Origin: Hellea sp.
GTDB taxonomy: Bacteria; Pseudomonadota; Alphaproteobacteria; Caulobacterales; Maricaulaceae
Direction of reading: 5' to 3'
DNA: 64,000 nt
NCBI GenBank assembly: GCA_020627655.1
Contig: JAHDGM010000007.1
Location: forward strand, 1-64,000
Positions 23,837 through 41,800 of this stretch are shown in pieces; positions within the stretch are counted from its first letter, which is position 1; each line of letters begins with the position of its first letter. Below the pieces are notes generated by a model that made no database searches, was not told the origin of the DNA, and saw only the letters and a list, made by a program, of their open reading frames with translations. The translations under genes and the position numbers were made by a program.

Positions 23837-24174
23837 TAGAGAAGAATAACCGTCTTTTGGGATTATGAAACAGCAATTTTATAATAAAATAAAACAGACA
23901 AACTTTCGCAACTTTCCTGTTAATCTTTATGAATTTTCGGTTTTAATCCTGATTAACCATAATGTCCGCAACTTGCTTCATTTCTTTACAGTTTGTTCGG
24001 TTTGGTTTCGGCTCCGTTAAAAATTTCAGGGGTCAGGGTTAATTTCAGGTAAGACAGGTAAACAAAACAAAAACATAAGTCACTGTTTTAATTGTATTTT
24101 TACGCTATTCTTAAGCGCGCATTTATGTATTTCCATTATATTGGATAGTCACGAATTAATCTTTGGTGACTGTT
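23837..24174. other. AT-rich promoter region of the giant surface-protein gene
   Basis: A 338-base divergent gap without a protein-like frame. A CtrA-like site (TTTA-N7-TTAAC, 23942-23957) differs by one base from the TTAA-N7-TTAAC consensus. Whether CtrA acts here is unproven. No certain -35/-10 pair could be chosen among the many AT-rich candidates. Confidence 0.35.
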
Positions 24175-27100
24175 ATGGGCGATATTTTTAATAACCAAAT
24201 TAACACTTCTGGTGAGAGTAAACGCAATCAATCTATTACACGATGGCTGCGCGCAACACTGGCCTTTATAATACCGGGGATGACATCGGTGATGTTGGGT
24301 ACGCAGGCTAATGCTTATGACTTTTGCGCCACTCAACCGGCCGGTGGGGATATCGCTTGGGATCTGGAAGATAACGGAAATAAAACCATTCCATTTTCGT
24401 TCACAGCAGGTGACGTTTGGACGAATGTTGAAAATGTTGGCAGCGCATCCATTCGCGGCAAACACCAGTACACAGGTGATATGGCGGCTGAACTTCGCAG
24501 CCCAAGCGGAACTAATGTTGTTCTGTTCCGTCTAGGGGATGGTCGATATGGGGAGGGTGCCTCAGGTTGTTTCAGAGCTGACTTTGATATTACATTTTCA
24601 GATACGCATTCAGGCCCGGATTTGTCTGTTTCCTCTGAGGGCACATATTGTACAGGCTCAAATAATAGAGGGTCTGAGGGTGTTTGGCCTCAGCCTTATC
24701 TACCCAATTTTCCGAATGTAGGAAGTTCGCCAGCCATTAACGGAACCGTTCGAACATATAACTCACAGGGTATGAGTTCTAACTTGCTTTCTAATTTTGT
24801 CGGCGATGATCCACTATCCGGTAGTTGGGGTTTATATGTCGAAGACGCTTATGCTCAGGATGTTGGCACCGTTGAAGAAGCTTGTTTGGACATGGACTTT
24901 GGTTCTGTGACCTATGATATCTGGGTTAGTTCGGATGCTAATTGTGCAGACCAACTGGATACAGCCACTTTTGACGAAGGCGATACCGTTAATGTGTGTT
25001 ACGTTGTTTCCAACGAAGCCACTCAAGATTTTAACCTTCAAAGTGAAACCAATGATCATGGACAAGCGCTAACCGAACTTAACGGGGCTTATTCTGCCAA
25101 GCTTGGCGGGAGTGCGACTGTTAAAACTGCTGTTCGAACATTCACGGCAGGTGATGGCACATTGCCTGTCGGCACTACCGAGTTAAGCGGTGATGTGACT
25201 GTTGAAGGTACGGATTCACATTTTTCCGCTGGCGAAACTCTCACGACTAATGAAAAAGTTACGATTACAGTTCGTAAGTCTAGTCTTGCCATTGATAAAG
25301 CCGCTCCGAGCAATGCAGATGAAGACGGGTCATCATCTGTTACTTTGGGCGATACACTCACTTATGTTATTACGGTGACTAATGATGGTCAGGTTGGTCA
25401 GCCGGATGTTGTCATTACGGATCCTAAACTAACGCCAGATACTCAAAATTGTGGCAGTCTTGCTAACGGGCAAAGCTGTACGCTAACCGGGACATATACA
25501 GTCACTCAGGCGGATGTGGATGCTGGGCAGATTTTGAATACGGCGAGTGTAGTTTCCAGTAAAATTACGACCCCTTTAGAAGATACTGAGACCACGCCTG
25601 TGGCTCAGACAGATAGTCTGGCTATTGATAAGCCGGCTCCAGCCAATGCCGATGGCGACAGCTCCGGTGATGTGTCTGTTGGAGATGTTCTGACTTATAC
25701 CATCACAGCGACCAATGACGGGACAACGACACTCAATAACGTTGTTGTGTCTGATCCATTGACGACACCAAGCTCTACGACCTGTACAACATTAGCACCG
25801 GGTGCGACCTGTGTTCTGACCGGGACATATACGGTCACTCAGGCTGACGTTGATGCTGGTTCTATTGTGAACACGGCGTCTGTTGAATCGACTGAGATTA
25901 CAACGCCTGTCACCGAAGGGGAGACCACGCCTGTGGCTCAGACAGATAGTCTGGCTATTGATAAGCCGGCTCCAGCCAATGCCGATGGCGACAGCTCCGG
26001 TGATGTGTCTGTTGGAGATGTTCTGACTTATACCATCACAGCGACCAATGACGGGACAACGACACAGAGCAATGTCACGGTGACAGACTCTATGATCAGT
26101 CCTAATACGCGTGTTTGCACGAGTCTGGCTCCTGGCGCAACTTGCAGCTTGACAGGTACTTACACCGTAACTCAGGCAGACGTGGACGCGGGTTCCATTG
26201 TCAATACAGCAGGCGTAACATCCGATGATATCACTACGGCGGTTGAAGACGTAGAGACAACACCTGTGGCTCAGACGGATAGTCTGGCCATCGATAAGCC
26301 GGCTCCTGCTAATGCCGATGGCGACAGCTCCGGTGATGTGTCTGTTGGTGATGTTCTGACTTATACCATTACGGCAACCAATGACGGGACAACGACACAG
26401 AGCAATGTTGTTGTATCCGATCCAATGATTTCACCAAGCTCTACGACCTGTACAACATTAGCACCGGGTGCGACCTGTGTTCTGACGGGTACGTATACGG
26501 TCACTCAGGCTGATGTGGATGCCGGTTCTATTACTAATACAGCAGGTGTGACGTCTGATGATATCACAACAGCTGTGGAAGATGGCAATGTTCAGACTAT
26601 TGTTGCTTCTCCGGAACTATCTATGACGAAAACAGCAGTAGAAACAAATTTTACCGCTGTTGGCGATACGATCAGCTATAATTATGAGGTTACTAATACA
26701 GGAAACGTCTCCATTACAGGCCTTAGTGTCACTGATGACAAAATCGCGACTGTCACTTGTCCGGTAACAAGTCTGGCACCAGGTGCCAGCACAACATGTA
26801 CAGCGACATATACGGTGACGCAGGCTGATCTAGATGCCGGTAGTGTGACAAATAACGCCGATGCTGACGCGACTCCTTCTGGGGGAACTTTAACACCGGC
26901 TGAAGCCAGTGAGACCGTGAACGGTACGCAATCCCCAGCGCTGAGTGTTGAAAAAACGTCAGTCGATACAACATTTGCTGCAGTCGGCGATTTACTGGAA
27001 TACGAATATAAAGTCACCAATACAGGTAACGTCACTGTAACCGATCCGATTTCTGTAAATGATGACAAAATTCCGGCTCCGGCTGTTGTCAGCTGTCCGG

Positions 27101-30100
27101 CCTTACCAATGGGTGGTCTGGCTCCGAATGAGTTTATCACATGTACAGCCAGTTATAGCGTGACACAGACTGATATTGATGCCGGTAGCGTTACCAATGT
27201 GGCCACAGCAACAGATGGCACAACTACATCACCTTCAGATAGTGTAACAGTTGATGCAACGCAGACACCGGAATTGACAATGGTAAAATCCGCCATTGAA
27301 ACCAGTTATACGGCTGTTGGTGACATTCTAAATTATGAGTATTCCGTTGAAAATACAGGGAACGTTGCCATTTCTGATATCGCTGTAACTGATGACCGTA
27401 TTGACACAGTCAGCTGCCTGGTCACCGGAGTAGGCAATGGCGATGCCAATCTGGATCCGGGCGAAACTGTTGTCTGTACGGCCAATTATACGGTGACGCA
27501 GGCTGACTTGGATGCGGGTTCTGTCACAAATAATGCGTCTGTCACAGGTACGCCAACGGGCGGCAGTTTAACAGATGCAACGGCTCAGGAAACAGTCAAT
27601 GCTGATCAACAACCTGCTTTGACAATGGCGAAGGCCTCCCTCGAAACCAGCTATGCGGCTGTGGGTGATGTTCTGAATTATGAATATACTGTCGAGAATA
27701 CAGGTAATGTGTATGTGTCCAATATTTCAGTGACGGACGACAAGATCGATTCTGTCACTTGTGATGTATCGGCGGTTGGTAATAACGACCCTAATCTTGA
27801 TCCAGGTGAAATCGTTGTCTGTACAGCCAGCTACACGGTAACTCAGGCCGACATAGACGCGGGTTCAGTTACCAATAATGCTTCTGTGACCGGTGACCCT
27901 TCCGGCGGAACTCTAACCGATGCCACAGCTCAGGAAACTGTTGATGCGACGCAAAACCCAGCCATGGAAGTTGTCAAAACAGCCACAGATGTTCAGTTCG
28001 AGCTTCCGGGTGATGTGACGACTTATGATTACGTTGTTACCAATACGGGTAATACAACGATTACTGATCCGATCAGTGTGAATGATAACCTGATTACATC
28101 AGTTTCCTGTCCGGCTCTTCCAGCTGGTGGCCTCGCTCCGAATGCCAGCCTGACCTGTACAGCCAGCTATACGGTTACGCAGGCTGACCTTGATGCTGGA
28201 TCTGTAACCAATCTGGCCAGCGCTACAGATGGTACGACCACGTCTCCGCAAACTTCAGAAACTATTCCAGCAGATCAAAGCCCGGCATTATCAATTGCCA
28301 AGGCAGCTTTGTTCACTGAGTTTACGACAGCAGGCGAAGTGGTTGAATATGAATATACAGTCACCAATACGGGTAACCTGACTTTGACAGGCGGCGTAAA
28401 CGTCGTCGATGATAAAATCGGAACAATTAGCTGCGTAACCGGGAATTTTATACCCGGTGCCGTTGAAACCTGTCGTGCCAGTTATACAATTACTCAGGCA
28501 GATATTGATGCCGGTTCCGTAACCAATCAGGCTTATGGCCAGAACGGATCACTGGTATCGGCTCCGGTTGACGTAACGGTTAATGCCAATCAGACACCAT
28601 CTGTTGATTTTGTGAAGCGCGCCACAACATCTTCCTTTACACAAGCTGGTGATGTTCTGTCTTATGAATTTGATGTTACCAATTCGGGCAATGTGACCCT
28701 GATTGGACTCAGCTTATCGGATGATTTGACATCTGTATCCTGCCCGCAAACATCCTTGGCACCTTCTGCGTCTATGATGTGTACGGCCAGTTACACAGTC
28801 ACACAGGCTGATGTGGATGCCGGTGAAGTTGTCAATAATGCAAGTATTACAGCTGTGCCGCCGAGCGGGACATCGATTACAGAAACATCAACAGCTACTG
28901 TTGATAGTTCTGCTACGTCGTCCCTGAGCTTTGCCAAGCGGGCTTTAGATACGAGCTTTGCTACGGCAGGTGACGTTCTTGATTATGCTTTTGACGTAGA
29001 AAACACGGGTACGATAACTCTGTCAGCTATTGCTATTTCAGATGATCTCGCGACAGTTTCATGTCCGTTTACAACTCTGGCTCCAGCGCAAACTATGGTT
29101 TGTAATGCGAGTTATACGGTTACCCAAGCTGATATAGATGCTGGCTCCGTCACTAATAATGCTTCTATAGCTTCAGAATTACCTGATGGATCAGTTGGTC
29201 CAGACAGCACTGACAGCGCAGTCGTCAATGCGGCTCTTATGCCTGAGCTCACCGTTGACAAGGTTGCCCTGGGTGCAAGCTATGCATCAGTCGGTGATGT
29301 ATTGTCCTATACTTACGCTGTTACGAATACAGGCAATGTGACTGTTTCAGCCATTAATGTGACGGATGATCTTATTCCGGCGCTGTCATGCCCTGCGACC
29401 ACTCTGTCACCAAACGCTTCTATGACCTGTACAGGAGATTATACTGTCACGCAGGCTGATATTGATGCCGGTTCTGTGACAAACACAGCCACAGCAACAG
29501 GTACGCCAAGTGGCGGTACTCTGGCGCCGGCTACTGACATGGAAACTGTTAATGCGGATCAGATGCCTTCTTTGGCTACGGTCAAGACAGCCATGACAGC
29601 AGATTATGATGCCGTCGGTGATGTTGTTTCATATGAATATGAAGTGACCAATACAGGTAATGTGACGATCACAGACGCTATCACGGTTTCTGATGATAAG
29701 ATTGCATCAGTCAACTGTCCGGCTCTGCCAAGCGGTGGTTTGGCACCGAACGCTGCAATTACTTGTACAGCTACATATGTTGTGACTCAGGCCGATATAG
29801 ATGCGGGTTCTGTGACGAATACAGCTTCTGCAACTGACGGGACTACGACATCGCCAGATGTCAGCGAAACGGTCAATGCAGTTCAGACACCATCTCTGGC
29901 CATGACAAAAACTGCCAGCCCGCAAACCTATGCGGCTGTGGGTGACGTCGTCAGTTATGATTATGTTGTTACGAATACAGGCAATGTGACCTTTACAGAT
30001 GCAGTGTCTGTATCAGATGATAAAATTTCATCTGTAACGTGTCCGGCGCTGCCAGCTGGAGGCTTAGCCCCCAATGCCAGCCTGACCTGTACGGCTACCT

Positions 30101-33100
30101 ACACAGTGACACAGGCTGATCTGGACGCGGGTTCTGTGACAAACTTGGCGAGTGCCTCAAGCGGTGCCACAAGTTCACCTGACGTCTCCGAAACGGTTAC
30201 AGCTGATCAGATGCCATCTCTGAGTGTTGATAAAACAGCCGTTAATACATCATACGCTGCCACAGGCGATGTGCTGGATTATAATTACCTCGTCACTAAT
30301 ACAGGTAATGTGACCATTACAGATGCTATTACGGTATCGGATGATTTAATCGCCAGTGTGAGTTGTCCAGCGCTTCCGGCTACGGGTTTGGCCCCTAATG
30401 CTACGCTGACTTGTACTGCCAGTTATACTGTGACACAGGCAGATATTGACGCAGGTTCAGTGACCAATATTGCCAGCGCCAGTGATGGTAATGTGACATC
30501 GCCAACGGATAGCGCGACGGTTAATGCAGACCAGATGCCATCCCTAACTATGGTCAAAACGGCTCTAACCACAGCATATGCTTCGCCGGGCGATGTTCTT
30601 TCCTATGAATATGAAGTGACCAATACGGGTAATGTCACCATGACAGGAGTCGTGACAGTCAGTGATGACCTTATTGATACGGTTGCCTGTCCGGCTCTGC
30701 CATTTGCAGGTTTGGCGCCTAATGCTTCCATTACATGTACGGCGACATATGTGGCGACGCAGGCCGACATTGATACCGGGTCTGTAACTAATATCGCCAG
30801 TGCTTCAAATGGTTCAACTCTATCACCAACCGATAGCGCGACCGTAAATGCGACTCAGGCACCGGCTTTGACTGTTGTTAAAGATGCCGATGCATTCACA
30901 TTCGCTATGCCGGGTGATGTCATCAATTACACATATGAAGTCATCAATGCTGGTAATACAACCATTACCAATGCAATCAGTGTCGCAGATGATAAAACCA
31001 CAGTAGCTTGTCCGGCGCTTCCGGCGGGCGGTCTGGCACCCATGGCCAGCCTGACCTGTACGGCCAGTTATGCTGTCACACAGGCAGATATTGATGCCGG
31101 TGAGGTGACCAATCTAGCCAGCGCAACTGATGGTTTGATAACCTCTCCGCAAGTATCCGAGACAGTTATCGCGACTCAGGATCCATCCATGTCAGTTGTG
31201 AAAACAGCCACAAGTGTAAACTTTGTATTGCCTGGTGATGTGACAACTTATGAATATGTCATCACCAATAATGGTAATGTAACAATCACGGACCCTGTGA
31301 CGATTACAGATAACCGGATTGCGTCGGTATCTTGCCCGGCTCTGCCAGCTGGTGGTCTCGCGCCTAATGCGGCTATGACCTGTACAGCAACTTATACAGC
31401 TACGCAGGATGATCTGGATCAAGGCTCTGTGACCAATATTGCTACGGCTAGTGATGGAACAACCACTTCCGATCCGGTTTCTGAAACAATTCCGGCTAGT
31501 CAGGCTCCAGCATTGACAATCCGCAAGTCATCGACAGATACGACTTATGCTGCAGTTGGTGAGGTTCTAAGCTATACTTACGAAGTTGAGAACACTGGTA
31601 ACGTCACACTTACAGGCGACATCAGTGTCGTTGATGACAAAATCGGTACCTTTGTCTGCTTTAGCGGGAATCTCGTACCAGGTGGCGTGGAAAGCTGTGT
31701 TGAAACCTATACGGTCACGCAGGCTGACATTGATAATGGCGAAGTTACCAATAATGCCTATGGTGATCACCCTCGCGCAACTTCTGCGCCGGTTGCTGTG
31801 ACCATACCGGCTGACCAAATGCCTGAGCTCTCCTTGCTCAAAGAAGCTTTGACAGCTGATTTTGATATGGCCGGCGAAACACTGGATTACCGTTATACTG
31901 TGACGAATACAGGTAACACGACAATCATCTATCCAATTGATGTTGACGATAACCGTATTCCCAATGTGACTTGTCCGGCACTCCCTGCTGGTGGTCTGCT
32001 TCCAGGTGCCAATATGGTATGTACAGGTTCTGATACTGTCACCCAGGCCGATGTAGACTCAGGTAGTGTCACCAATACGGCAACAGCAACAGATGGACAG
32101 ACCACGTCCAGCCCACCGCAAACAGCGACTGTCAATGCAGTTCAGACTCCATCTATGGGTGTTCAGAAACTCGCAGGAGATAGTGCTTATGCGGCTGTCG
32201 GAGATGAACTCGACTACACCTATATTGTGACCAATACGGGTAATGTGACATTGACCGATGCGATCAGCGTTACTGATAGCCGTATCGACAATGTCAGCTG
32301 TCCGGCTCTTCCAGCTGGAGGTTTGCTGCCAGGTGCTACAATCACTTGTACAGCTACCGACACGGTGACACAGGCCGATCTCGACGCAGGGTCTGTTATG
32401 AATACGGCTTCTGCAACAGATGGAACAACTACATCCGGAACCGTTGATGTCACAGTTGAAGCAACGCAGGAACCAGCTCTTGAAATGACCAAGACGGCTC
32501 GTGAAGCTGATTTTGATGCCGCTGGTGACACAGTCACTTATGACTATGTTGTGACCAATACGGGTAATGTGACGCTTACAAATGCAATCACAGTATCTGA
32601 TGATAAAATTGCGTCAGTTTCTTGTCCGGCACTTCCTGTTGGTGGTTTGGCCCCAACAGCCTCTCTAACCTGTTCAGCGACTTATACAGTGACGCAGGCC
32701 GATATGGATGCTGGCTCAGTGACAAATCTGGCCTCTGCAAGCGATGGCTCAACCACGTCACCACAGGTATCAGAGACTGTTGATGCTGTTCAAAGTTCTG
32801 GATTGGCTATGACCAAAACAGCGGTTGAAACAAGCTACGCCGCTGTTGGCGAAACCCTGACCTATAATTATCTTGTGACCAATACAGGTAATGTATCCAT
32901 CACTAGTGACATCACAGTAACGGATGACCGGATTGCCACTGTAACATGTCCGGCTCTTCCAGCTGGCGGCCTCGCCCCAAGTGCTTCGATTACCTGTACA
33001 GCAACGGATACTGTTTCCCAGGCTGACATAGATGCCGGTTCTGTTACCAATACAGCGGCAGCAAGTGATGGAACGACAATATCTCCATCTGTAAGCGAAA

Positions 33101-36100
33101 CTGTCACTGCAGATCAAAATGTCGGTTTCACAGTTGATAAACAAGCCGTGTCCAATGACTTCTCCGCTGTTGGCGATGTGCTGTCATATGCTTATATTCT
33201 GGAAAATACCGGTAATGTGAGCCTGACTGAAACAGCTACAATTGCAGATGATAAGATCGGAACTATTACATGTCCGGCTATGCCAAGCGGTGGCTTGGTT
33301 CCGGGTGCGACTTTAACCTGTGAGGCTGATTATACAGTTACGCAGGCTGATCTGGACACAGGTTCGGTAACTAATATTGCTTCGGCGACTATTGGAACGG
33401 AAACTTCGGCTAATGATACGGTCACAATTGAGGGTACTCAGGCGCCAGAGCTGACTATCGCCAAGTCTTCGAATGCATCTCCGTTTACGGCCGTCGGTGA
33501 AATTGTGTCTTATGAATATGTTGTAAGCAATAGTGGTAATGTGACCATTACGGCCCCTGTAACAGTGTCTGATGATAAGATCGCCACGGTCAACTGTCCG
33601 GCCCTGCCGAGCGGTGGGTTGGCGCCGATGGCCTCCATCACCTGTAGTGCTGATTACGCTGTCACGCAGGCAGATCTGGATAATGGTTCAGTGACAAATA
33701 TCGCGAGCGCCTCTGATGGCACTACAGTTTCAGAGACTGATAGCGTAACCGTTGATGCAGCGCAGCAAAGTGGTCTGTCCATTGCCAAGTCATCTTTGAC
33801 CACGAGCTTTAACATGCCGGGTGACATTGTTTCTTATGAATATGTTGTCACCAATACAGGTAATGTGACGTTGACCGATGCGATCAGTGTTGCTGATGAT
33901 AAAATTTCTGATGTCACCTGTCCGGCTCTGCCAAGCGGCGGATTGGCTCCGCAGGCTACTCTGACTTGTTCGGCAGATTATACTGTAACGCAGTCAGATA
34001 TTGATAATGGCTCAGTGACTAATATTGCGACTGCAAGTGCAGGAAACACCACATCACCGGCTGATGAAGTAACTGTAGAAGCCAGCCGTGAACCTGAATT
34101 GAGTGTTACGAAATCTGTGACTGAAACTGTTCAGGTGGGTGGCCCGATCTATGACGTAACCTATGAAATTGCCATGGAGAACACAGGTAATGTCACACTC
34201 ACGGATCTACAGCTTCAGGATGACCTGGCGACAGCGCTATCCCCGGCAACTATCTATGACGTCCCGACTGTGCAAGCCTCCGGGTTTAATAGCGGAAGTG
34301 CCAATACAGCCTATGATGGGGCCTCAAATCTTGATTTGTTAGCCAATAATCCAATGCTTATGGTCGGAGAGTCCGGTCTGGTAACATTGCAGGTTCGGGT
34401 TGATACAACCAATGGCGGCCCTGCAAATGCTAATACCGCGATCGGTAACGCACCTGTTCTGTCATCGCCTGTTCCATCGAATGATCCGATGGTAACGCCG
34501 GATAATAGTAGTGATGTCAATCCGACGCCGCTTGTGATCAATGACCTGGATGGCGATGGTGTGAACGACCTCCTTGAAAGCGCATCTGAAGATCGTGATG
34601 GTGATGGTATTCCAGACCAAGAAGACTATGATCCTACAGGTTATTTCTACTGTGAAGAAAACGGCCGGATTCTGACAGGTGGCGGTATATCTGTCTCCGG
34701 TCCAGCTGGCTCAAATTCTGCGCTCGGAACTGCCAATAACATTACAATCGTTCAAGACGGTTCTAATGGTTACTACCAGTTCTATGTGACGGCTCCTGGT
34801 CGTTATACATTGAGCCCGACTTATCCTGATACTGGTGCACCAAGCACGCGTCGTCCGGTTCAAAATGTAGCCCTGGATGTGACGAGTATGCTTCCAAGTA
34901 ATCCAGGTATACTGGGATCATCAGAATTTGGTGATACAGGCGAATTGGCGGACTTCTCTGCTGAAACCAACACACCTTTCTACTTCACATTTGATATAGA
35001 AGCCGGAGATCCATCTATTCTGATGAATAATATTCCGCTTCAGCATTGTGGTAGTTCAGAGCTCAGCTTGTCCAAGACTGTTGCTGCTGATCCTGTAACG
35101 CAGGACAATGGTCAGCAATTGGTTAGCTATAACTTCACGGTGACAAATACGGGCGAAACCCGCGTAGACGATATTCAGATCATAGATGATCTAGGGTCAG
35201 TTTACGGTCCTGCTAATATTACAATCGGAACGAACTCCATAATAGATGAGCCGATTAATTATGCGGGCGGTCTAAATGAAGGGTTTGACGGTGTGACTGA
35301 CATTGAGGTCTTAAACGGTCTGGGTGAGCTGGAAGCAGGAAAAAGTCTGACTGTCAATGTTCAGGCTTTGGTAACTCCGGAAACAGCCAGTACCTTTATC
35401 AATAAAGCGACTGTGCAGGGCGGTGATCCACTTGATGGATCAATTGTTCTGGCGGACGATACTGCCTCTATTCAGCTCGTACCAGCAGCCAAAGTCAGTG
35501 ATCTGGTTGTGCGTAAAGTGGCCCGTCCACGCACCGTACAGATAGGTGATCCGATCCTCTACACGATTGAGGTTATGAATACGGGTCTGGGTACAGTTAC
35601 GGATATCGACATCGTTGATAATATTCCTGCCGGGTTTGCCTATATTCCAAACAGTGCAACTGTGTCAGATGGTACTGATAGTGTGAAGCTGGAACCTGAA
35701 ATGGTCACAGCGGGTCAACTCAGCTGGGGTATTGCCAATATGAATGCCTCTCCGCTGGATTATCTGGCATCTGGTGAAACTGTGAGTGTTAACCTGCGTC
35801 TACTTGCCGGGCCAAATGTAGACTTTGGTCAGCATGAGAATCAGGCTTGGGCGCAAAACAACGATACGGGTGAGCGCTCAGCCATTGCTACGGCAAGCGT
35901 TGATTATATCCCTGAGCCGACATTCGATTGTACGCCAGTGTTGGGCCGCGTTTATGATGACGTGAACCATAATGGTTATCCCGATGATGGTGAGCCAGGC
36001 CTACCCGGTGTGCGTCTGGTAACAGTCAATGGTGACATCATCACAACAGATGGTCACGGGCGTTACCACATACCGTGCGCCATGATTGCGGATAGTGAAA

Positions 36101-39100
36101 ACGGATCGAACTTCCTGCTCAAAGCAGATGTTCGTACCCTGCCGCTTGGATTTGCAACCACAACAGAGAATCCACGTGTGGTTCGGGCTACGCGCGGTAA
36201 GTTCGTGAAATTGAACTTTGGTGCAGCTTTCCGTCCTAAACTTCGCATTGACCTGTTTGAACAGGATTATGATCGTGGTTTAATGACTGCAGAAGCAGCC
36301 AGCCGTATCAGAACGGTTATGAACAGTAACTCTGATGCCGAGCGGGCTCTGGTTATTTATCACGCCAGTGATGATCAATCCGTGGATCAGGCTCAGGCTA
36401 ATCTGACACTGGCCATGAAGGTTATTGAAGAGTTAGCTCCTAAAGCGCTGCAAGATGTGGCTCTAGAAGCAAGCTGGGGCGATGCTGAAATCTTTGTCGA
36501 TGAGCGTGACCGCCAGCCGGTTCAATATGACCAATCCTCTGTTGAGGGCAAAGACGGTGAGCGTGTGACGTTCAAGTCTAACGGCAAAGGCGGCTTGGAT
36601 AAATCTGAGACATATGATTATGCCTTTGATGTGAAGGGCGCTATGCGTGGCCAGAAAGGTTCCAAACCTCTGACTGGTGATGAACGTGAGCGGTCTATTT
36701 CACTGGCCGGTCGTCAGGATCGCTACGCTGATGAAACAGCCCGTCCAGGCCGTCTGCAGCGCTGGGTAGGCTGGGCAGACAGCACATCATCCTATGCCGA
36801 AGGTCCGGAACTTGAAACAACTGTTGATGCGCTTGATCCTGTTAAACGCCTCAATGCTCAGGCCGATATCGTTGCCACAGAACAGGGACGCATGATCATG
36901 GCCGAGGCCTATCACAACTATGCGGCCTTTACGGACCGTCTGGAAGTCCGTGTCTTTGATGCAGATCGCTCAGTACGCGGTACGCCTCTGGCGGTTCTAG
37001 CGGTGACAAATGGCAAGGCCTCGGGCGCGCTGGGTGAGGATTGGCCAGAAGAGCTGTCTTATGTCCTTAGGGCTTATGGTTCTGATGGTGACTTTGACGA
37101 AACAGCGCTTAAGTCACTTCACAATGGCGATGCTGAGTATGACCTGTCTATGGAAGACTGGGCACAGCAGGCTTATACAGCCTTTGGTCAAAACACTTTG
37201 GTTAAAAACAACGTGACGACAAGAGGTGGGGCGGTTCGGGTCTATGGTCGCAATATTGCGGGTGGCACAGCTCTAGTAATGGGGCAAACAGTCCGCGTTG
37301 ACGAAAGTGGCCGCTTTGTATCCGAGCAGATCCTGCCAAAAGGTGAGCAGCAAGTTGCTGTTGAGCTGGCTGGTGTTAATGGTACAACGCACCGTATGGT
37401 GCGCATGGTTGAGGTTAAGGACCGTGACACATTCTACGTGGCTCAGATTGAAGCCACAGTGGGTGAGCGTCCAAGTTCTGATGATACCTTTACGGAAGGC
37501 CGTGTCGCATTTTATGTGCGCTCACGTCTGAACGATCGTTGGGCCTTCACGGCTACAGCCGATACTGGTGAAGCTGAAATCGGTGATTTGTTAAATGGTC
37601 TTGATGATAAGGATGTATCGCAACTTCTGCGTCGTCTTGATCCTGACAAATATTACCCTGTCTATGGTGATGACAGCACGATTGAGCAGGATGCTCCAAC
37701 ATCAGGCCGTATCTACGCTCGTCTGGAACGCGATGATGACTACCTATTATGGGGTAATTATCAGACTAACTTCTCAGATACTGAATATGGTCGCATCCAG
37801 CGCACGCTCTATGGCGCTAAGCTGCACTGGGATGAAAACAATGCCACTAAGTTTGGTGATGCACGGACAGAAGTAACCGCATTCCTGGCTGAGGGTGGAA
37901 CCCGCCAGGGCCGCGATGAACTTCAAGGTACGGGTGGTAGTATCTATTATCTCCGTCATGGTGACGTTTCGATCGGTTCTGAAATTGTTCGGGTTGAAAC
38001 ACGCGATGTGGTCTCAGGTCTGGTTATCGAAAGTCGCCGTATGAGTTATGGCACGGATTATGATATGGACTTCATCCAGGGCCGTATCCTTCTGAACCGT
38101 CCATTGTCCAGTACGGCAAATGATGGCCGTTTGTTCAGAGATGGATCACAGTCTGGTCACGAAACCGTTCTGGTAGTTGACTATGAGTTCAGCCTGCTTG
38201 GAGCTGGCGATGACTCCAGCATCTATGGTGCGCGTGCCAGCCGTTGGTTCAATGACTTGGTCAAAGTTGGCGTGACTTATAATCACGGCGATGATGGCGG
38301 TGTTGAAAGCGACCTCTATGAAGCTGATCTGACATTACAGCTCGCAGCCGGGACTTATATTAAAGGTGAGATTGCACAAACTGAGGGCGCAGGTGTTGAA
38401 ACCTATCGTTCTGATGATGGCGGCTTTACCTATGCCCGTCGTGACCGCGGTGGTCTGGCTAATGATGCCAAGGCTATGGCCTATGCTATCGAAGCTGCAA
38501 CAGATCTATCTGATTACTTTGATGCCGATGGTCGTGTTTACGCTTACTGGCGCAAACGTGAAGCCGGATTTGCCGGTTATGCGGAAAACACCAATCAGAG
38601 TGTTGAGCAATATGGCGGCGGAATGCGCTTGGATGTCTTTGAAGACTTTAGCCTGAATGCTCGCGCCGATATCTTTGAGGATCAGACTGTTGGAACCAAT
38701 AGCTTTGCCGAGGCGAGTGCGGAATATGCACTTAATGACAATGTGAAGCTTTCCGGTGGTGTGTCATATAATGATAATGGCACAACATCAGGTACTTCTA
38801 TCGGTGGTCGTGCAGAGTATGCCTTCAATAATGACGCTCATGTCTATGTCTTCGGTCAAGCAGGTCTGGAAGGTGATAATGCACGCACAACTGACCGCGC
38901 CGGTGTCGGTGGTGAACTTCGTATCGGTAAACGCCTCTTAGCTGGAGGTGAAGTTTCCGGCGGTGAAGATGGCCTAGGTGCCAGACTCTCTGCACGTGTT
39001 CAGAGCGAGGACGGAGACGAATATTATGCCGCCTATGATTTGCCATTGCAGTCACAGGTTGCCAGTAATATGGGAACTTTCAATCTGGGTGCCCGCCGCC

Positions 39101-40008
39101 GTTTCTCTGATGCTCTGTCAGTTTACGGTGAAGAGCGTATGCAATTCAATGAGCGCGGTCTGAACGGCGTTACCCATGCCTATGGTGTGGAATACAAGCC
39201 AGGTAAGTGGAATCTGAACCTCTCGGGTGAGCTCGGCCGCGTCAATGATCTTGACCGCGAAGCGATCTCCGCTGGAGTTGGATTCAAAGATGATCATATG
39301 CAGGCGGGTATTACCTCCGAATTCCGTCAGGATAAAAATGTCCTGACCGGGGAGGACCGCCGCACATGGCTCCTGCGCTCGACAGCTCTCTATCAGATGA
39401 GTGATGAGTTGCGTCTGCAAGGTAAGTTCAACATGGTCAAATCCGACCTAAGCGAAGGAACATCGGCTCTCGACTTTAACGAAGCTGAGTTTACGGAAGC
39501 GTCCATTGCAGCGGCCTATCGTCCGGTCTGGGATGATCGTTTCAACTTGCTGGCCAAAGCGGTCTATCTCTATGATCTGTCGCCGTCGTCACAGCGTTTT
39601 GGCGGAGAGTCTGTCAATTATCGTCAGAAGAGTACAATTTACTCTGTAGATGGTAGTTATGATATTCACCCGCGCTGGACACTTGGGGCAAAGTACGGCC
39701 ATCGTAGCGGTGAAGTCACGGATAGCCGCGAGAGCGATGATTTCTATAAGTCATCGGCTGATCTTGGTGTGATCCGCCTCGATTACCACCTAACCCATCG
39801 TTGGGATGCGACGCTTGAAGGTCGTTACCTTAGCATTGGTGACGGCACGGTTGAACGCACTGGCGGTCTGGCGGCTCTGTACCGTCACATCAATGACAAC
39901 GCCAAAATCGGCGTTGGCCTGACTTATGGCGGGATTGAACAGGAATATTTGCTCGCCCGCGATGATGAAGACATTGGCTGGCTGGTTAATGTTGTCGGTA
40001 AATTCTAA
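24175..40008 (+). CDS. Giant repeat-rich surface protein with C-terminal outer-membrane barrel-like region
   Basis: A protein of about 5,277 residues. The order is: an extended signal peptide (hydrophobic core LRATLAFIIPGM, cut after QANA); a proprotein-convertase P-domain-like module (about 50-245; 'YTGDMAAELRSPSG', 'GSWGLYVEDA'); about 27 tandem Ig-like DUF11/DUF7507-type repeats (369-3306), plus one degenerate copy. Next come a thrombospondin-3-like calcium-binding stretch (about 3456-3490), two further DUF11-like domains, an SdrD-B-like module (about 3922; 'LGRVYDDVNHNGYPDDGEPG'), and about 860 residues of alternating beta-strands ending in ...VVGKF, a typical outer-membrane barrel C-terminus. 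I infer surface anchoring by its own barrel and an adhesive or stalk role. ATG 24175 is preferred over TTG 24163 because GGTGA precedes it. A strong terminator follows. Confidence 0.85.
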   Translation: MGDIFNNQINTSGESKRNQSITRWLRATLAFIIPGMTSVMLGTQANAYDFCATQPAGGDIAWDLEDNGNKTIPFSFTAGDVWTNVENVGSASIRGKHQYTGDMAAELRSPSGTNVVLFRLGDGRYGEGASGCFRADFDITFSDTHSGPDLSVSSEGTYCTGSNNRGSEGVWPQPYLPNFPNVGSSPAINGTVRTYNSQGMSSNLLSNFVGDDPLSGSWGLYVEDAYAQDVGTVEEACLDMDFGSVTYDIWVSSDANCADQLDTATFDEGDTVNVCYVVSNEATQDFNLQSETNDHGQALTELNGAYSAKLGGSATVKTAVRTFTAGDGTLPVGTTELSGDVTVEGTDSHFSAGETLTTNEKVTITVRKSSLAIDKAAPSNADEDGSSSVTLGDTLTYVITVTNDGQVGQPDVVITDPKLTPDTQNCGSLANGQSCTLTGTYTVTQADVDAGQILNTASVVSSKITTPLEDTETTPVAQTDSLAIDKPAPANADGDSSGDVSVGDVLTYTITATNDGTTTLNNVVVSDPLTTPSSTTCTTLAPGATCVLTGTYTVTQADVDAGSIVNTASVESTEITTPVTEGETTPVAQTDSLAIDKPAPANADGDSSGDVSVGDVLTYTITATNDGTTTQSNVTVTDSMISPNTRVCTSLAPGATCSLTGTYTVTQADVDAGSIVNTAGVTSDDITTAVEDVETTPVAQTDSLAIDKPAPANADGDSSGDVSVGDVLTYTITATNDGTTTQSNVVVSDPMISPSSTTCTTLAPGATCVLTGTYTVTQADVDAGSITNTAGVTSDDITTAVEDGNVQTIVASPELSMTKTAVETNFTAVGDTISYNYEVTNTGNVSITGLSVTDDKIATVTCPVTSLAPGASTTCTATYTVTQADLDAGSVTNNADADATPSGGTLTPAEASETVNGTQSPALSVEKTSVDTTFAAVGDLLEYEYKVTNTGNVTVTDPISVNDDKIPAPAVVSCPALPMGGLAPNEFITCTASYSVTQTDIDAGSVTNVATATDGTTTSPSDSVTVDATQTPELTMVKSAIETSYTAVGDILNYEYSVENTGNVAISDIAVTDDRIDTVSCLVTGVGNGDANLDPGETVVCTANYTVTQADLDAGSVTNNASVTGTPTGGSLTDATAQETVNADQQPALTMAKASLETSYAAVGDVLNYEYTVENTGNVYVSNISVTDDKIDSVTCDVSAVGNNDPNLDPGEIVVCTASYTVTQADIDAGSVTNNASVTGDPSGGTLTDATAQETVDATQNPAMEVVKTATDVQFELPGDVTTYDYVVTNTGNTTITDPISVNDNLITSVSCPALPAGGLAPNASLTCTASYTVTQADLDAGSVTNLASATDGTTTSPQTSETIPADQSPALSIAKAALFTEFTTAGEVVEYEYTVTNTGNLTLTGGVNVVDDKIGTISCVTGNFIPGAVETCRASYTITQADIDAGSVTNQAYGQNGSLVSAPVDVTVNANQTPSVDFVKRATTSSFTQAGDVLSYEFDVTNSGNVTLIGLSLSDDLTSVSCPQTSLAPSASMMCTASYTVTQADVDAGEVVNNASITAVPPSGTSITETSTATVDSSATSSLSFAKRALDTSFATAGDVLDYAFDVENTGTITLSAIAISDDLATVSCPFTTLAPAQTMVCNASYTVTQADIDAGSVTNNASIASELPDGSVGPDSTDSAVVNAALMPELTVDKVALGASYASVGDVLSYTYAVTNTGNVTVSAINVTDDLIPALSCPATTLSPNASMTCTGDYTVTQADIDAGSVTNTATATGTPSGGTLAPATDMETVNADQMPSLATVKTAMTADYDAVGDVVSYEYEVTNTGNVTITDAITVSDDKIASVNCPALPSGGLAPNAAITCTATYVVTQADIDAGSVTNTASATDGTTTSPDVSETVNAVQTPSLAMTKTASPQTYAAVGDVVSYDYVVTNTGNVTFTDAVSVSDDKISSVTCPALPAGGLAPNASLTCTATYTVTQADLDAGSVTNLASASSGATSSPDVSETVTADQMPSLSVDKTAVNTSYAATGDVLDYNYLVTNTGNVTITDAITVSDDLIASVSCPALPATGLAPNATLTCTASYTVTQADIDAGSVTNIASASDGNVTSPTDSATVNADQMPSLTMVKTALTTAYASPGDVLSYEYEVTNTGNVTMTGVVTVSDDLIDTVACPALPFAGLAPNASITCTATYVATQADIDTGSVTNIASASNGSTLSPTDSATVNATQAPALTVVKDADAFTFAMPGDVINYTYEVINAGNTTITNAISVADDKTTVACPALPAGGLAPMASLTCTASYAVTQADIDAGEVTNLASATDGLITSPQVSETVIATQDPSMSVVKTATSVNFVLPGDVTTYEYVITNNGNVTITDPVTITDNRIASVSCPALPAGGLAPNAAMTCTATYTATQDDLDQGSVTNIATASDGTTTSDPVSETIPASQAPALTIRKSSTDTTYAAVGEVLSYTYEVENTGNVTLTGDISVVDDKIGTFVCFSGNLVPGGVESCVETYTVTQADIDNGEVTNNAYGDHPRATSAPVAVTIPADQMPELSLLKEALTADFDMAGETLDYRYTVTNTGNTTIIYPIDVDDNRIPNVTCPALPAGGLLPGANMVCTGSDTVTQADVDSGSVTNTATATDGQTTSSPPQTATVNAVQTPSMGVQKLAGDSAYAAVGDELDYTYIVTNTGNVTLTDAISVTDSRIDNVSCPALPAGGLLPGATITCTATDTVTQADLDAGSVMNTASATDGTTTSGTVDVTVEATQEPALEMTKTAREADFDAAGDTVTYDYVVTNTGNVTLTNAITVSDDKIASVSCPALPVGGLAPTASLTCSATYTVTQADMDAGSVTNLASASDGSTTSPQVSETVDAVQSSGLAMTKTAVETSYAAVGETLTYNYLVTNTGNVSITSDITVTDDRIATVTCPALPAGGLAPSASITCTATDTVSQADIDAGSVTNTAAASDGTTISPSVSETVTADQNVGFTVDKQAVSNDFSAVGDVLSYAYILENTGNVSLTETATIADDKIGTITCPAMPSGGLVPGATLTCEADYTVTQADLDTGSVTNIASATIGTETSANDTVTIEGTQAPELTIAKSSNASPFTAVGEIVSYEYVVSNSGNVTITAPVTVSDDKIATVNCPALPSGGLAPMASITCSADYAVTQADLDNGSVTNIASASDGTTVSETDSVTVDAAQQSGLSIAKSSLTTSFNMPGDIVSYEYVVTNTGNVTLTDAISVADDKISDVTCPALPSGGLAPQATLTCSADYTVTQSDIDNGSVTNIATASAGNTTSPADEVTVEASREPELSVTKSVTETVQVGGPIYDVTYEIAMENTGNVTLTDLQLQDDLATALSPATIYDVPTVQASGFNSGSANTAYDGASNLDLLANNPMLMVGESGLVTLQVRVDTTNGGPANANTAIGNAPVLSSPVPSNDPMVTPDNSSDVNPTPLVINDLDGDGVNDLLESASEDRDGDGIPDQEDYDPTGYFYCEENGRILTGGGISVSGPAGSNSALGTANNITIVQDGSNGYYQFYVTAPGRYTLSPTYPDTGAPSTRRPVQNVALDVTSMLPSNPGILGSSEFGDTGELADFSAETNTPFYFTFDIEAGDPSILMNNIPLQHCGSSELSLSKTVAADPVTQDNGQQLVSYNFTVTNTGETRVDDIQIIDDLGSVYGPANITIGTNSIIDEPINYAGGLNEGFDGVTDIEVLNGLGELEAGKSLTVNVQALVTPETASTFINKATVQGGDPLDGSIVLADDTASIQLVPAAKVSDLVVRKVARPRTVQIGDPILYTIEVMNTGLGTVTDIDIVDNIPAGFAYIPNSATVSDGTDSVKLEPEMVTAGQLSWGIANMNASPLDYLASGETVSVNLRLLAGPNVDFGQHENQAWAQNNDTGERSAIATASVDYIPEPTFDCTPVLGRVYDDVNHNGYPDDGEPGLPGVRLVTVNGDIITTDGHGRYHIPCAMIADSENGSNFLLKADVRTLPLGFATTTENPRVVRATRGKFVKLNFGAAFRPKLRIDLFEQDYDRGLMTAEAASRIRTVMNSNSDAERALVIYHASDDQSVDQAQANLTLAMKVIEELAPKALQDVALEASWGDAEIFVDERDRQPVQYDQSSVEGKDGERVTFKSNGKGGLDKSETYDYAFDVKGAMRGQKGSKPLTGDERERSISLAGRQDRYADETARPGRLQRWVGWADSTSSYAEGPELETTVDALDPVKRLNAQADIVATEQGRMIMAEAYHNYAAFTDRLEVRVFDADRSVRGTPLAVLAVTNGKASGALGEDWPEELSYVLRAYGSDGDFDETALKSLHNGDAEYDLSMEDWAQQAYTAFGQNTLVKNNVTTRGGAVRVYGRNIAGGTALVMGQTVRVDESGRFVSEQILPKGEQQVAVELAGVNGTTHRMVRMVEVKDRDTFYVAQIEATVGERPSSDDTFTEGRVAFYVRSRLNDRWAFTATADTGEAEIGDLLNGLDDKDVSQLLRRLDPDKYYPVYGDDSTIEQDAPTSGRIYARLERDDDYLLWGNYQTNFSDTEYGRIQRTLYGAKLHWDENNATKFGDARTEVTAFLAEGGTRQGRDELQGTGGSIYYLRHGDVSIGSEIVRVETRDVVSGLVIESRRMSYGTDYDMDFIQGRILLNRPLSSTANDGRLFRDGSQSGHETVLVVDYEFSLLGAGDDSSIYGARASRWFNDLVKVGVTYNHGDDGGVESDLYEADLTLQLAAGTYIKGEIAQTEGAGVETYRSDDGGFTYARRDRGGLANDAKAMAYAIEAATDLSDYFDADGRVYAYWRKREAGFAGYAENTNQSVEQYGGGMRLDVFEDFSLNARADIFEDQTVGTNSFAEASAEYALNDNVKLSGGVSYNDNGTTSGTSIGGRAEYAFNNDAHVYVFGQAGLEGDNARTTDRAGVGGELRIGKRLLAGGEVSGGEDGLGARLSARVQSEDGDEYYAAYDLPLQSQVASNMGTFNLGARRRFSDALSVYGEERMQFNERGLNGVTHAYGVEYKPGKWNLNLSGELGRVNDLDREAISAGVGFKDDHMQAGITSEFRQDKNVLTGEDRRTWLLRSTALYQMSDELRLQGKFNMVKSDLSEGTSALDFNEAEFTEASIAAAYRPVWDDRFNLLAKAVYLYDLSPSSQRFGGESVNYRQKSTIYSVDGSYDIHPRWTLGAKYGHRSGEVTDSRESDDFYKSSADLGVIRLDYHLTHRWDATLEGRYLSIGDGTVERTGGLAALYRHINDNAKIGVGLTYGGIEQEYLLARDDEDIGWLVNVVGKF
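25279..34092 (+). repeat. Tandem array of about 27 coding Ig-like repeats
   Basis: Four repeats of 111 residues (333 bp) come first, beginning like 'SLAIDKPAPANADGDSSGD'. About 23 repeats of roughly 90-110 residues follow, beginning like 'P-x-L-x-x-x-K-T-A' and holding 'VTNTGNV' and 'TYTVTQADxDAGSVTN'. Almost every unit has two cysteines about 8-16 residues apart around 'SLAPGA' or 'LPAGGLAPNA', consistent with one disulfide per domain. A final degenerate copy starts at 34093. Confidence 0.9.
25588..26065 (+). repeat. 145-bp exact direct repeat inside the giant gene
   Basis: Bases 25588-25732 and 25921-26065 read identically, spaced by exactly 333 bp. The third unit (from about 26254) is close but not identical. 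This marks recent duplication or gene conversion among the first four repeats, and is a site prone to length change or assembly collapse. Confidence 0.88.
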
Positions 40009-40088: not shown

Positions 40089-40135
40089 GGGACGCTTCAT
40101 GGTTAATGGCATCTTAATTGCTCAGTTCCGTCATT

Positions 40136-41800
40136 ATGATGGAACCGGGTGCAAAATTAATAAGAACAGCTGCGTTGATGATGATCACGGCCTTGGGGGC
40201 TTGCGGGGGTGGTGGCTCGTCCTCAACGCCTGCGCCAACAAGTTCTGTAACACCGGCCACGACCAGCCAGTCCGCCACTCATGTAAAACTGAGCGGCGCA
40301 GTTACTTATGATCATGTTCCGCATAAGGCCCAAGGATACGGGCTTGATTATAATGCAATTGTGAAAAGCCCTGCGCGCGGTGTTGTCGTGGCGCTTCTGG
40401 ATGACAAAGATAATGTCATTCAAACAACCTCCACTAATGCACAGGGACGTTATAGTTTTGATGTTGGTTTAAACACATCGGTCAAAGTTCAAGTTCAGGC
40501 AAAATTACTCGCAAGTGATAAACAGGCGTGGGATGTTTCGACGACAGATAACACACTCGATAATGCCCTTTACGCGATGGAGGGAAGTTTAAAATCATCT
40601 GGCAGCCAGAGCAGTCAAACCCGTGATCTTCATGCAGGCTCAGGGTGGAATAACGGCGCTTATACTGGAGACCGTGTTGCGGCGCCATTTGCAATTCTTG
40701 ATCCTATCTATGAAGCGATCACTTCCGTGACAGCCATTGATCCGGACGCGGTTATGCCGAAACTTGAAATTCGTTGGAGCGCGGATAATGCGCCTGTAAT
40801 CGGTGATAAATCCAAAGGGCAGATTGGGACATCCGGTTTTCATAAGGATGACAATGTCATTTATCTGCTAGGTGCAGAGGGACGTGATACGGATGAATAC
40901 GATCCACATGTGATTATTCACGAGTGGGGACATTATTTTGAGCATAATTTGGCCAGAATGGATTCCCTTGGTGGCTTACACAGTCTGGGCGATAAGCTTG
41001 ATCCGCGTGTGGCTTTTAGCGAAGGTTTCGGTAATGCGCTATCTGCAATCATTACGGGTGATCCCGAATATAAGGACAGTTCCGGGGAGGGGCAGGACGG
41101 CGGATTTGTCATCGATTTCGAAGACATGTCCCCCGTCCGCGCCGGCTGGTTCAATGAAGGTTCTGTGGCGGCTATAATATATGATGTCCATGATGATAAT
41201 TCAGATGGGTCTGATCATATGTCGCTGGGTTTTGCGCCGATTTACCAAGCGCTTACGGATGACACATTCAAAAACAGCAGCGTGTTTACAACCATATACA
41301 CATTTTCAGAGAGTCTCTTGAAGCAGTCATCGGTCAATAACGCAGATTACGAAATGTTGTTATCCGGTCAGAAGATTGCGTCTAGTGATGGAAAAGGAGC
41401 CGGGGAAAACAATAGCGGATCTATTGCTTCAGCGCTACCTGTGTACAAAGAGGTTCGTTTAGGTGAAGATCCTGTCCAAATTTGTTCAGTTGATGATGCC
41501 GGGAATTATAACAAGCTTGGGAACCGCGAATTTGTCTTACTGGATTTGGAAACAGACGGAAATTATATGATTTCTGTTAAGCGTAAATCCGGTGAAGAGC
41601 AGCGCGATCCGGATTTCAATATCTGGAAGGGTGCCGAGTTGGTTCAGGAGGTTTCGTCTTCGCTAAGGGATGAAGAAATCTTCCGTGGTTCTTTGCGCGC
41701 AGGAAATTACGTGATTGAAGCTTATGATTTTTATAATATCAATGGCGGCTCAACTAAGCGCGGTGACGCCTGTTATGCGTTAACTGTCTTAAAAGAGTAG
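40136..41800 (+). CDS. Zinc-metallopeptidase-like lipoprotein
   Basis: A 554-residue predicted lipoprotein. The signal peptide ends in a lipobox (LGAC, Cys23) followed by a flexible Gly/Ser/Thr-rich linker. Residues about 50-115 look like a carboxypeptidase-regulatory/CNA-B-type beta fold ('ARGVVVALLDDKDNVIQ'). A gluzincin-type zinc site is at 262-266 (HEWGH), with Glu296 in 'AFSEGFGN' as the likely third ligand. A C-terminal beta-rich domain resembles peptidase pre-peptidase C modules. The peptidase family and substrate are unknown. It follows the giant gene after its terminator and could act on surface proteins (inference). The ATG at 40136 or the next codon gives the signal peptide; no clear ribosome site separates them. 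Confidence 0.75.
   Translation: MMEPGAKLIRTAALMMITALGACGGGGSSSTPAPTSSVTPATTSQSATHVKLSGAVTYDHVPHKAQGYGLDYNAIVKSPARGVVVALLDDKDNVIQTTSTNAQGRYSFDVGLNTSVKVQVQAKLLASDKQAWDVSTTDNTLDNALYAMEGSLKSSGSQSSQTRDLHAGSGWNNGAYTGDRVAAPFAILDPIYEAITSVTAIDPDAVMPKLEIRWSADNAPVIGDKSKGQIGTSGFHKDDNVIYLLGAEGRDTDEYDPHVIIHEWGHYFEHNLARMDSLGGLHSLGDKLDPRVAFSEGFGNALSAIITGDPEYKDSSGEGQDGGFVIDFEDMSPVRAGWFNEGSVAAIIYDVHDDNSDGSDHMSLGFAPIYQALTDDTFKNSSVFTTIYTFSESLLKQSSVNNADYEMLLSGQKIASSDGKGAGENNSGSIASALPVYKEVRLGEDPVQICSVDDAGNYNKLGNREFVLLDLETDGNYMISVKRKSGEEQRDPDFNIWKGAELVQEVSSSLRDEEIFRGSLRAGNYVIEAYDFYNINGGSTKRGDACYALTVLKE

Follow-up and report, generated by a model that had tools for sequence, protein, structure and literature searches.

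A giant Ig-repeat protein fused to a predicted outer-membrane barrel in Hellea sp., the one-lineage form of a widespread two-gene system

Described systems and the Hellea locus

In type Vb secretion (TpsA/TpsB), a large Sec-exported passenger is encoded next to its dedicated outer-membrane barrel, and in type Vd (PlpD, FplA) passenger and barrel are joined in one chain in a two-partner-like concept, with a 16-stranded Omp85 barrel, one POTRA and a lipase passenger (PMC6555100). Type Va autotransporters carry a signal peptide, an N-terminal passenger and a C-terminal barrel ending in Phe. Type Ve proteins (intimin/invasin) hold an Ig-repeat stalk by a barrel with a periplasmic anchoring module near it, and the giant RTX/type I adhesins (LapA, SiiE) are Ig-type fibres retained at the surface by an outer-membrane barrel. 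In a survey of fibrillar adhesins, the YadA anchor, Autotransporter and LapG plus RTX were the commonest proteobacterial anchors, and no anchor of the kind described below is among those listed (PMC8286594).

Here, we analysed a window of 64,000 nucleotides from Hellea sp., in which the gene at 24175-40008 (forward strand) encodes a giant passenger fused with a predicted barrel in a single open frame, an arrangement that is kept in the family. The frame is uninterrupted from its ATG start over 5,277 codons, with an in-frame TTG at 24163. With 27 stalk repeats on one chain and a predicted barrel anchor, its product has the build of a fibrillar adhesin. The gene is the fused, one-lineage form of a widespread two-partner-like system rather than a stand-alone autotransporter, because in most relatives the barrel is a separate secreted protein encoded behind a giant stalk gene.

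The system resembles type Vb in its large Sec-exported passenger and dedicated outer-membrane barrel, encoded by neighbouring genes in 29 of 32 split relatives, but the passenger consists of Ig repeats instead of a beta-helix, a conserved module occupies its C-terminus and its gene always comes first. The POTRA_2 and ShlB domains of type Vb had no Pfam match in 12 members or in the window, and the N-terminal TPS (haemagglutination activity) domain is absent, the N-terminus of the window's chain being a P-domain followed by DUF11/DUF7507. With type Vd it shares the combination of passenger and barrel in one chain; however, barrel family, periplasmic modules and passenger all differ, and Pfam scans found neither an Omp85 barrel with POTRA nor a lipase passenger. 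The fused and split forms relate to each other as types Vd and Vb do according to their description (PMC6555100). The likeness to type Va (signal peptide, N-terminal passenger, C-terminal barrel with Phe end) is confined to the fused members, but the barrel region comprises approximately 600-860 aa, where type Va has a 12-stranded domain, and is usually a separate protein; the 12-stranded type Va translocator (Pfam Autotransporter, PF03797) had no match in the C-terminal part. As in type Ve, an Ig-repeat stalk is barrel-anchored with a periplasmic anchoring module near the barrel, but the order is reversed and the barrel differs: the N-terminal IAT_beta barrel had no match, the barrel-like part being C-terminal, and the Ig domains at the junction resemble intimin D00-D0 at the general Ig level only. 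Type I adhesins depend on a C-terminal secretion signal and an ABC exporter, whereas here a Sec-type signal peptide stands at the N-terminus and the barrel at the other end, and no RTX/HemolysinCabind match was found in the C-terminal region. For the very large, 36-stranded SprA barrel of type IX, NCBIfam and PDB sequence searches gave no match, and the weak structural model does not fix the strand number. Judged by sequence, the system lies outside types Va, Vb, Vd, Ve and type I.

The first-pass annotation had proposed a different, perhaps autotransporter-like display route in a single polypeptide. Stalk and anchor are indeed combined in one chain, but this single-chain form is a derived minority, the split two-gene form is commoner in relatives, and none of the Autotransporter, IAT_beta, POTRA or ShlB models matches.

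Anatomy of the chain

The chain starts with a signal peptide and a P-domain, followed by 27 Ig-like repeats and a calcium-type motif. One DUF11 domain, an SdrD-like domain and a degenerate OmpA-like module come next; a charged linker leads from there to two Ig domains and the barrel-like C-terminus, which is free of cysteine and has a terminal Phe. This anatomy bears out the earlier claim that export signal, stalk and barrel-like anchor reside in a single chain. The Sec-type signal peptide (residues 1-48, 24175-24318) has a long N-region and a hydrophobic stretch, LAFIIPGMTSVM, preceding the ANA/YD site; its core reaches 1.82 on the Kyte-Doolittle scale. It is followed by an N-terminal tip resembling the proprotein-convertase P-domain (residues 49-245, 24319-24909, boundaries approximate), which matches PF01483 with 31.2 bits at a cut-off of 21. 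Tips differ among relatives, with the P-domain in the window and a CshA_NR2 adhesin domain or SpaA-type domains elsewhere. One split-pair passenger (L099:8729-10528) carries an N-terminal CshA_NR2 domain (126 bits) plus a GEVED domain.

The stalk at 25276-34080 is built of Ig-like DUF7507/DUF11 repeats of approximately 108 aa each, which match these Pfam families at very high scores. The "about 27" repeats of the first-pass annotation turned out to be exactly 27, counted as TQxDxD-type motifs spaced 103-115 aa apart. Nearly all of them contain a cysteine pair, with 8-19 residues between the partners. The calcium-binding-type motif DLDGDGVND...DRDGDGIPD is likewise present (34543-34641).

The end of the passenger begins with a DUF11 domain at 35500-35865 (PF01345, best stretch 1166-1287 of the window segment 32005-36204), ahead of the terminal SdrD-like domain (35887-36279), in which two cysteines are invariant and which is supported by alignment with relatives and by co-occurrence with the barrel. 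The Pfam match to SdrD_B is weak, at 18.5 bits under the cut-off, yet the domain is clearly conserved in the alignment of relatives and marks the passenger C-terminus in split relatives. Next comes a degenerate OmpA-like module (36241-36477), recognised by its beta-alpha-beta-alpha-beta pattern in the junction model (pLDDT approximately 55-73). This degenerate copy has no Pfam match, and a canonical OmpA Pfam domain occupies the equivalent place in split relatives. Canonical OmpA domains stand at the passenger end in L092 and L099 and, as one or three copies, at the start of the barrel protein in L082, L083 and L090. The barrel proteins of L083 and L090 have three of them in tandem N-terminal to the barrel.

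Passenger and barrel protein are joined after the OmpA-like module and before the first Ig domain of the latter. At the site expected for the barrel's signal peptide, a charged and probably disordered linker is found (36484-36849, pLDDT approximately 20-30), in which no signal peptide is left (top hydrophobicity -0.18). Two Ig-like domains follow (36850-37416), the N-terminal part of the barrel protein, which are common to split barrel proteins. Structure prediction of the junction, as suggested at first pass, gave these Ig domains at pLDDT 60-87, but Foldseek returned only generic Ig matches for the junction model and the OmpA-like fold was unconfirmed.

The remaining C-terminal part falls into no sequence family of Pfam, NCBIfam or PDB. 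Its most conserved core (37414-38154; motifs YGDDST, WGN, GTGGS and DYD.D..QGR) is common to paralogues of approximately 1,700 aa and is possibly a plug or gate. The predicted outer-membrane beta-barrel, which lacks cysteine, occupies 38155-40005 (start approximate), as deduced from the model, its fold matches and hydrophobic alternation. It ends with the strand GWLVNVVGKF (39976-40005), whose terminal Phe is of the BAM beta-signal type and which is kept in nearly all family members; across the family this strand is conserved, mostly with Phe or Tyr at its end. Averaged over 45 sequences, hydrophobic alternation showed 32 strong peaks, mostly in the last approximately 620 residues, compared to 15.2 +/- 3.1 in shuffled columns, none of 300 shuffles reaching 32. 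An earlier strand-peak count had given no difference from shuffles; the present count is a better-defined version with higher thresholds. The AlphaFold2 model of the C-terminal part is of low confidence (mean pLDDT 47, long central hairpins at 60-83) and was built on an alignment of only 7 close relatives. Both structure predictions are poor because the alignments were limited to close relatives. Nearly all fold matches of this weak model are outer-membrane barrels, among them the Deinococcus S-layer complex, LptD, FimD ushers, porins and TonB-dependent transporters, with TM-scores to PDB barrels of only approximately 0.2. Moreover, family members show weak Pfam matches to OMP_b-brl, Opacity and KdgM, several unrelated outer-membrane barrel families. 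A PDB search with the single C-terminal sequence found nothing at E<=1, and the profile search yielded one weak barrel match (3dwo, E 0.022). Scans of viral contigs found no relative. Alternation, last strand and fold matches all favour the barrel with terminal Phe proposed at first pass, and the C-terminal part is very probably an outer-membrane barrel. Approximately 600 of its approximately 860 aa look like a many-stranded barrel, the fold and size of which we infer.

The fold alignments also bear on the idea of a TonB-dependent nutrient receptor, with the giant protein as its accessory capture arm. Public annotation names family barrels as TonB-dependent receptor in several records, otherwise as OmpA family or hypothetical, and in Phyllobacterium sp. 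628 (L046:10225-12526) the split pair is followed by genes for a siderophore-interacting protein, ExbB, ExbD and a TonB-family protein. TonB-dependent transporters, whose fold is a 22-stranded barrel, are among the top alignments (Z approximately 14), but the weak model aligns alike to many barrels, with porins, ushers and others scoring equally. Furthermore, neither a plug nor a TonB_dep_Rec Pfam match was found in the window copy or the 12 members scanned, and the other annotated loci showed no TonB genes. Hence, we regard a nutrient receptor as highly improbable.

Gene pairing, co-occurrence and fusion

The homologue search found the same C-terminal part with other passengers, a check that the first-pass annotation had suggested. 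The separate-gene relatives span alpha-, beta- and gammaproteobacteria and are plasmid-borne in Phyllobacterium, Sinorhizobium, Eleftheria, Croceibacterium and Sulfitobacter. The split barrel genes comprise approximately 1,100-1,750 codons and lie directly behind a giant DUF11/SdrD passenger gene on the same strand in 29 of the 32 loci examined, the passenger genes having up to approximately 6,500 codons and the same SdrD-like domain near their end. In these 29 loci, the distance from passenger stop to barrel start ranges from -4 to +107 bp, with start codons picked by a heuristic, and both proteins carry separate signal peptides. The three unpaired exceptions are partly accounted for: G509 has a passenger with the terminal domain approximately 10 kb from the barrel gene, and in G117 and G222 such passengers are located on other contigs. 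The same unlinked pattern was seen in G733, outside the 32 loci, with the passenger on another contig. We found no description of the passenger-barrel pairing in the open-access literature.

Some neighbours of the pairs deserve mention. In the annotated Eleftheria locus (L048:1-4145), genes for FecR-domain and CHASE2-domain proteins are situated upstream of the passenger gene, and in L109:189-4653 two long frames are similarly placed, which by eye are perhaps a FecR-like protein and a cyclic-di-GMP enzyme. These upstream genes suggest control by envelope signals.

The link between passenger and barrel also holds at the genome level. In a draw of 385 genomes from the class, the full-length barrel was found in 8, the terminal domain of the passenger in 9 and both in 8; in a draw of 398 genomes from the phylum, the numbers were 22, 24 and 22. 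Of the two remaining genomes in the phylum draw, one has a fragment of the barrel located at a contig edge and the other a short fused paralogue. The Fisher p values of approximately 8e-16 (class) and 4e-34 (phylum) are too small, since they ignore shared ancestry; the barrel-bearing genomes are distributed over many families. The rule that barrel and terminal domain go together is almost exceptionless.

In the window's family (Robiginitomaculaceae, judged by named relatives in the tree), passenger and barrel form one gene of approximately 4,900-7,060 codons. Ten fused sequences make up one supported clade (100/99), with the fused L089 and L028 falling outside; the placement of L028, on a long branch, is uncertain. 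Genome G293 contains a fused gene and a split pair together. The window gene is a fusion of two genes with loss of the internal signal peptide. Gene pairing, reciprocal co-occurrence and natural fusion are solid. An ordinary partnerless multi-domain surface protein was considered as well and was ruled out by pairing and co-occurrence, and a fusion made by the assembly was ruled out by the same fusion in several further family genomes, including the isolate Hellea balneolensis.

In addition, there is a set of paralogues of approximately 1,700-2,200 codons that combine DUF11, SdrD-like domain, conserved core and barrel in one chain. One of them occurs in the same genome as the window gene (G000:C30 about 27757-32877, L029:3757-8877); it has approximately 1,700 aa with SpaA-like, DUF11, SdrD-like, Ig and barrel modules and the core motifs YGDRS, FGDF, DGTSG and DYTLDY, and lacks the giant stalk. 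Genes resembling it were found in approximately one third of the sampled family genomes.

Other genes in the window were also inspected. The next gene downstream (40118-41800, forward strand) encodes a probable lipoprotein (lipobox LGAC) that carries a metallopeptidase-type motif (HEWGH), matches SdrD_B weakly and is a candidate for the processing of the giant protein. Its role as a release protease was considered and set aside, a homologue near the fused gene being found at the loci of only two relatives (L021, on the opposite strand, and L018). At 48841-50802 (forward strand), a NACHT-domain protein is encoded (PF05729, 31.4 bits), which has a sub-threshold match to the NCBIfam anti-phage model DS8 and no PADLOC match.

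A proposed display route and its meaning

OmpA domains bind peptidoglycan. Because such domains are found at the passenger-barrel junction, the junction is most simply periplasmic, and with the repeats preceding and the barrel following it, the repeats would cross the membrane beside or through the barrel. Our main reading, to which we assign a probability of roughly 0.6, is a two-partner-like display in which a dedicated large barrel carries and holds the giant adhesin via its C-terminal module, made self-contained here by fusion. The Sec pathway would take the chain into the periplasm, where the BAM machinery would insert the C-terminal part of approximately 860 aa via its C-terminal strand. 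Through or alongside the barrel, the N-terminal P-domain and the stalk of 27 disulfide-pinned Ig repeats would then reach the outside, and the SdrD-like and OmpA-like modules together with the two Ig domains would remain periplasmic and hold the fibre. In split relatives, the barrel probably recognises the passenger by its SdrD-like/OmpA-like end, which would serve for docking and retention. Topology, surface location, adhesion, export through the barrel and its recognition of the terminal module are what we infer in this proposal.

The same peptidoglycan-binding OmpA domains, present at the passenger end or the barrel start in several relatives and threefold in tandem in L083 and L090, could instead speak for a periplasmic tether, in which the repeat chain stays inside and the OmpA-like modules tie the outer membrane to the cell wall. 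However, 27 to 40 Ig domains would, from the known size of an Ig domain, extend to the order of 100 nm, far beyond the periplasm; the variable N-terminal tips, including the CshA adhesin domain, suit an exposed end, and the OmpA module is confined to the junction. A tether is very unlikely on these grounds.

Alternatively, the barrel could be an anchor only, with the passenger leaving through a BAM-barrel hybrid pore and the barrel then plugging the pore and holding the chain; split barrels would be docking receptors for passengers that take another way out. The order of passenger and C-terminal barrel with terminal Phe is that of type Va, and cysteine pairs only 8-19 residues apart are compatible with type V passengers, which allow small-loop disulfides (PMC8151025). 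But passenger and barrel are separate chains in 29 of 32 split loci, where the hairpin of a hybrid barrel therefore cannot act in cis. Moreover, the window chain contains 64 cysteines in total, whereas T5SS proteins generally have few, close together if any, the chlamydial Pmps being unusual with up to 18 (PMC8151025). Such an anchor-only role is unlikely in our view. Nevertheless, transport by the barrel is unsupported by homology, because searches of Pfam, NCBIfam and PDB revealed no sequence relation to any known translocator, and the link between passengers and barrels could be purely structural, which we counted against the barrel as carrier.

Returning to display by a dedicated barrel, a large barrel might possibly admit folded or partly folded Ig domains, by analogy to ushers. 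A bolder version, which we hold only tentatively and consider less probable than its opposite, is an undescribed secretion type of the Pseudomonadota, in which a huge barrel exports disulfide-bonded, possibly folded Ig fibres with the help of a periplasmic C-terminal recognition module and which gave rise to several independent self-exporting fusions.

Gram-negative genomes commonly encode giant repeat proteins that have a Sec signal but no known exporter, and the neighbouring barrels are annotated as TonB-dependent receptors or as OmpA proteins. Through the natural fusion, barrel and passenger are linked, which offers hundreds of orphan giant DUF11/SdrD proteins a partner that can be tested. 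If it is true that the barrel exports, this would be a new outer-membrane route for cysteine-rich Ig fibres, a cargo mostly avoided by the known type V systems. The pairing suggests that giant proteins are widely displayed on the cell surface by a two-part route that has so far gone undescribed.
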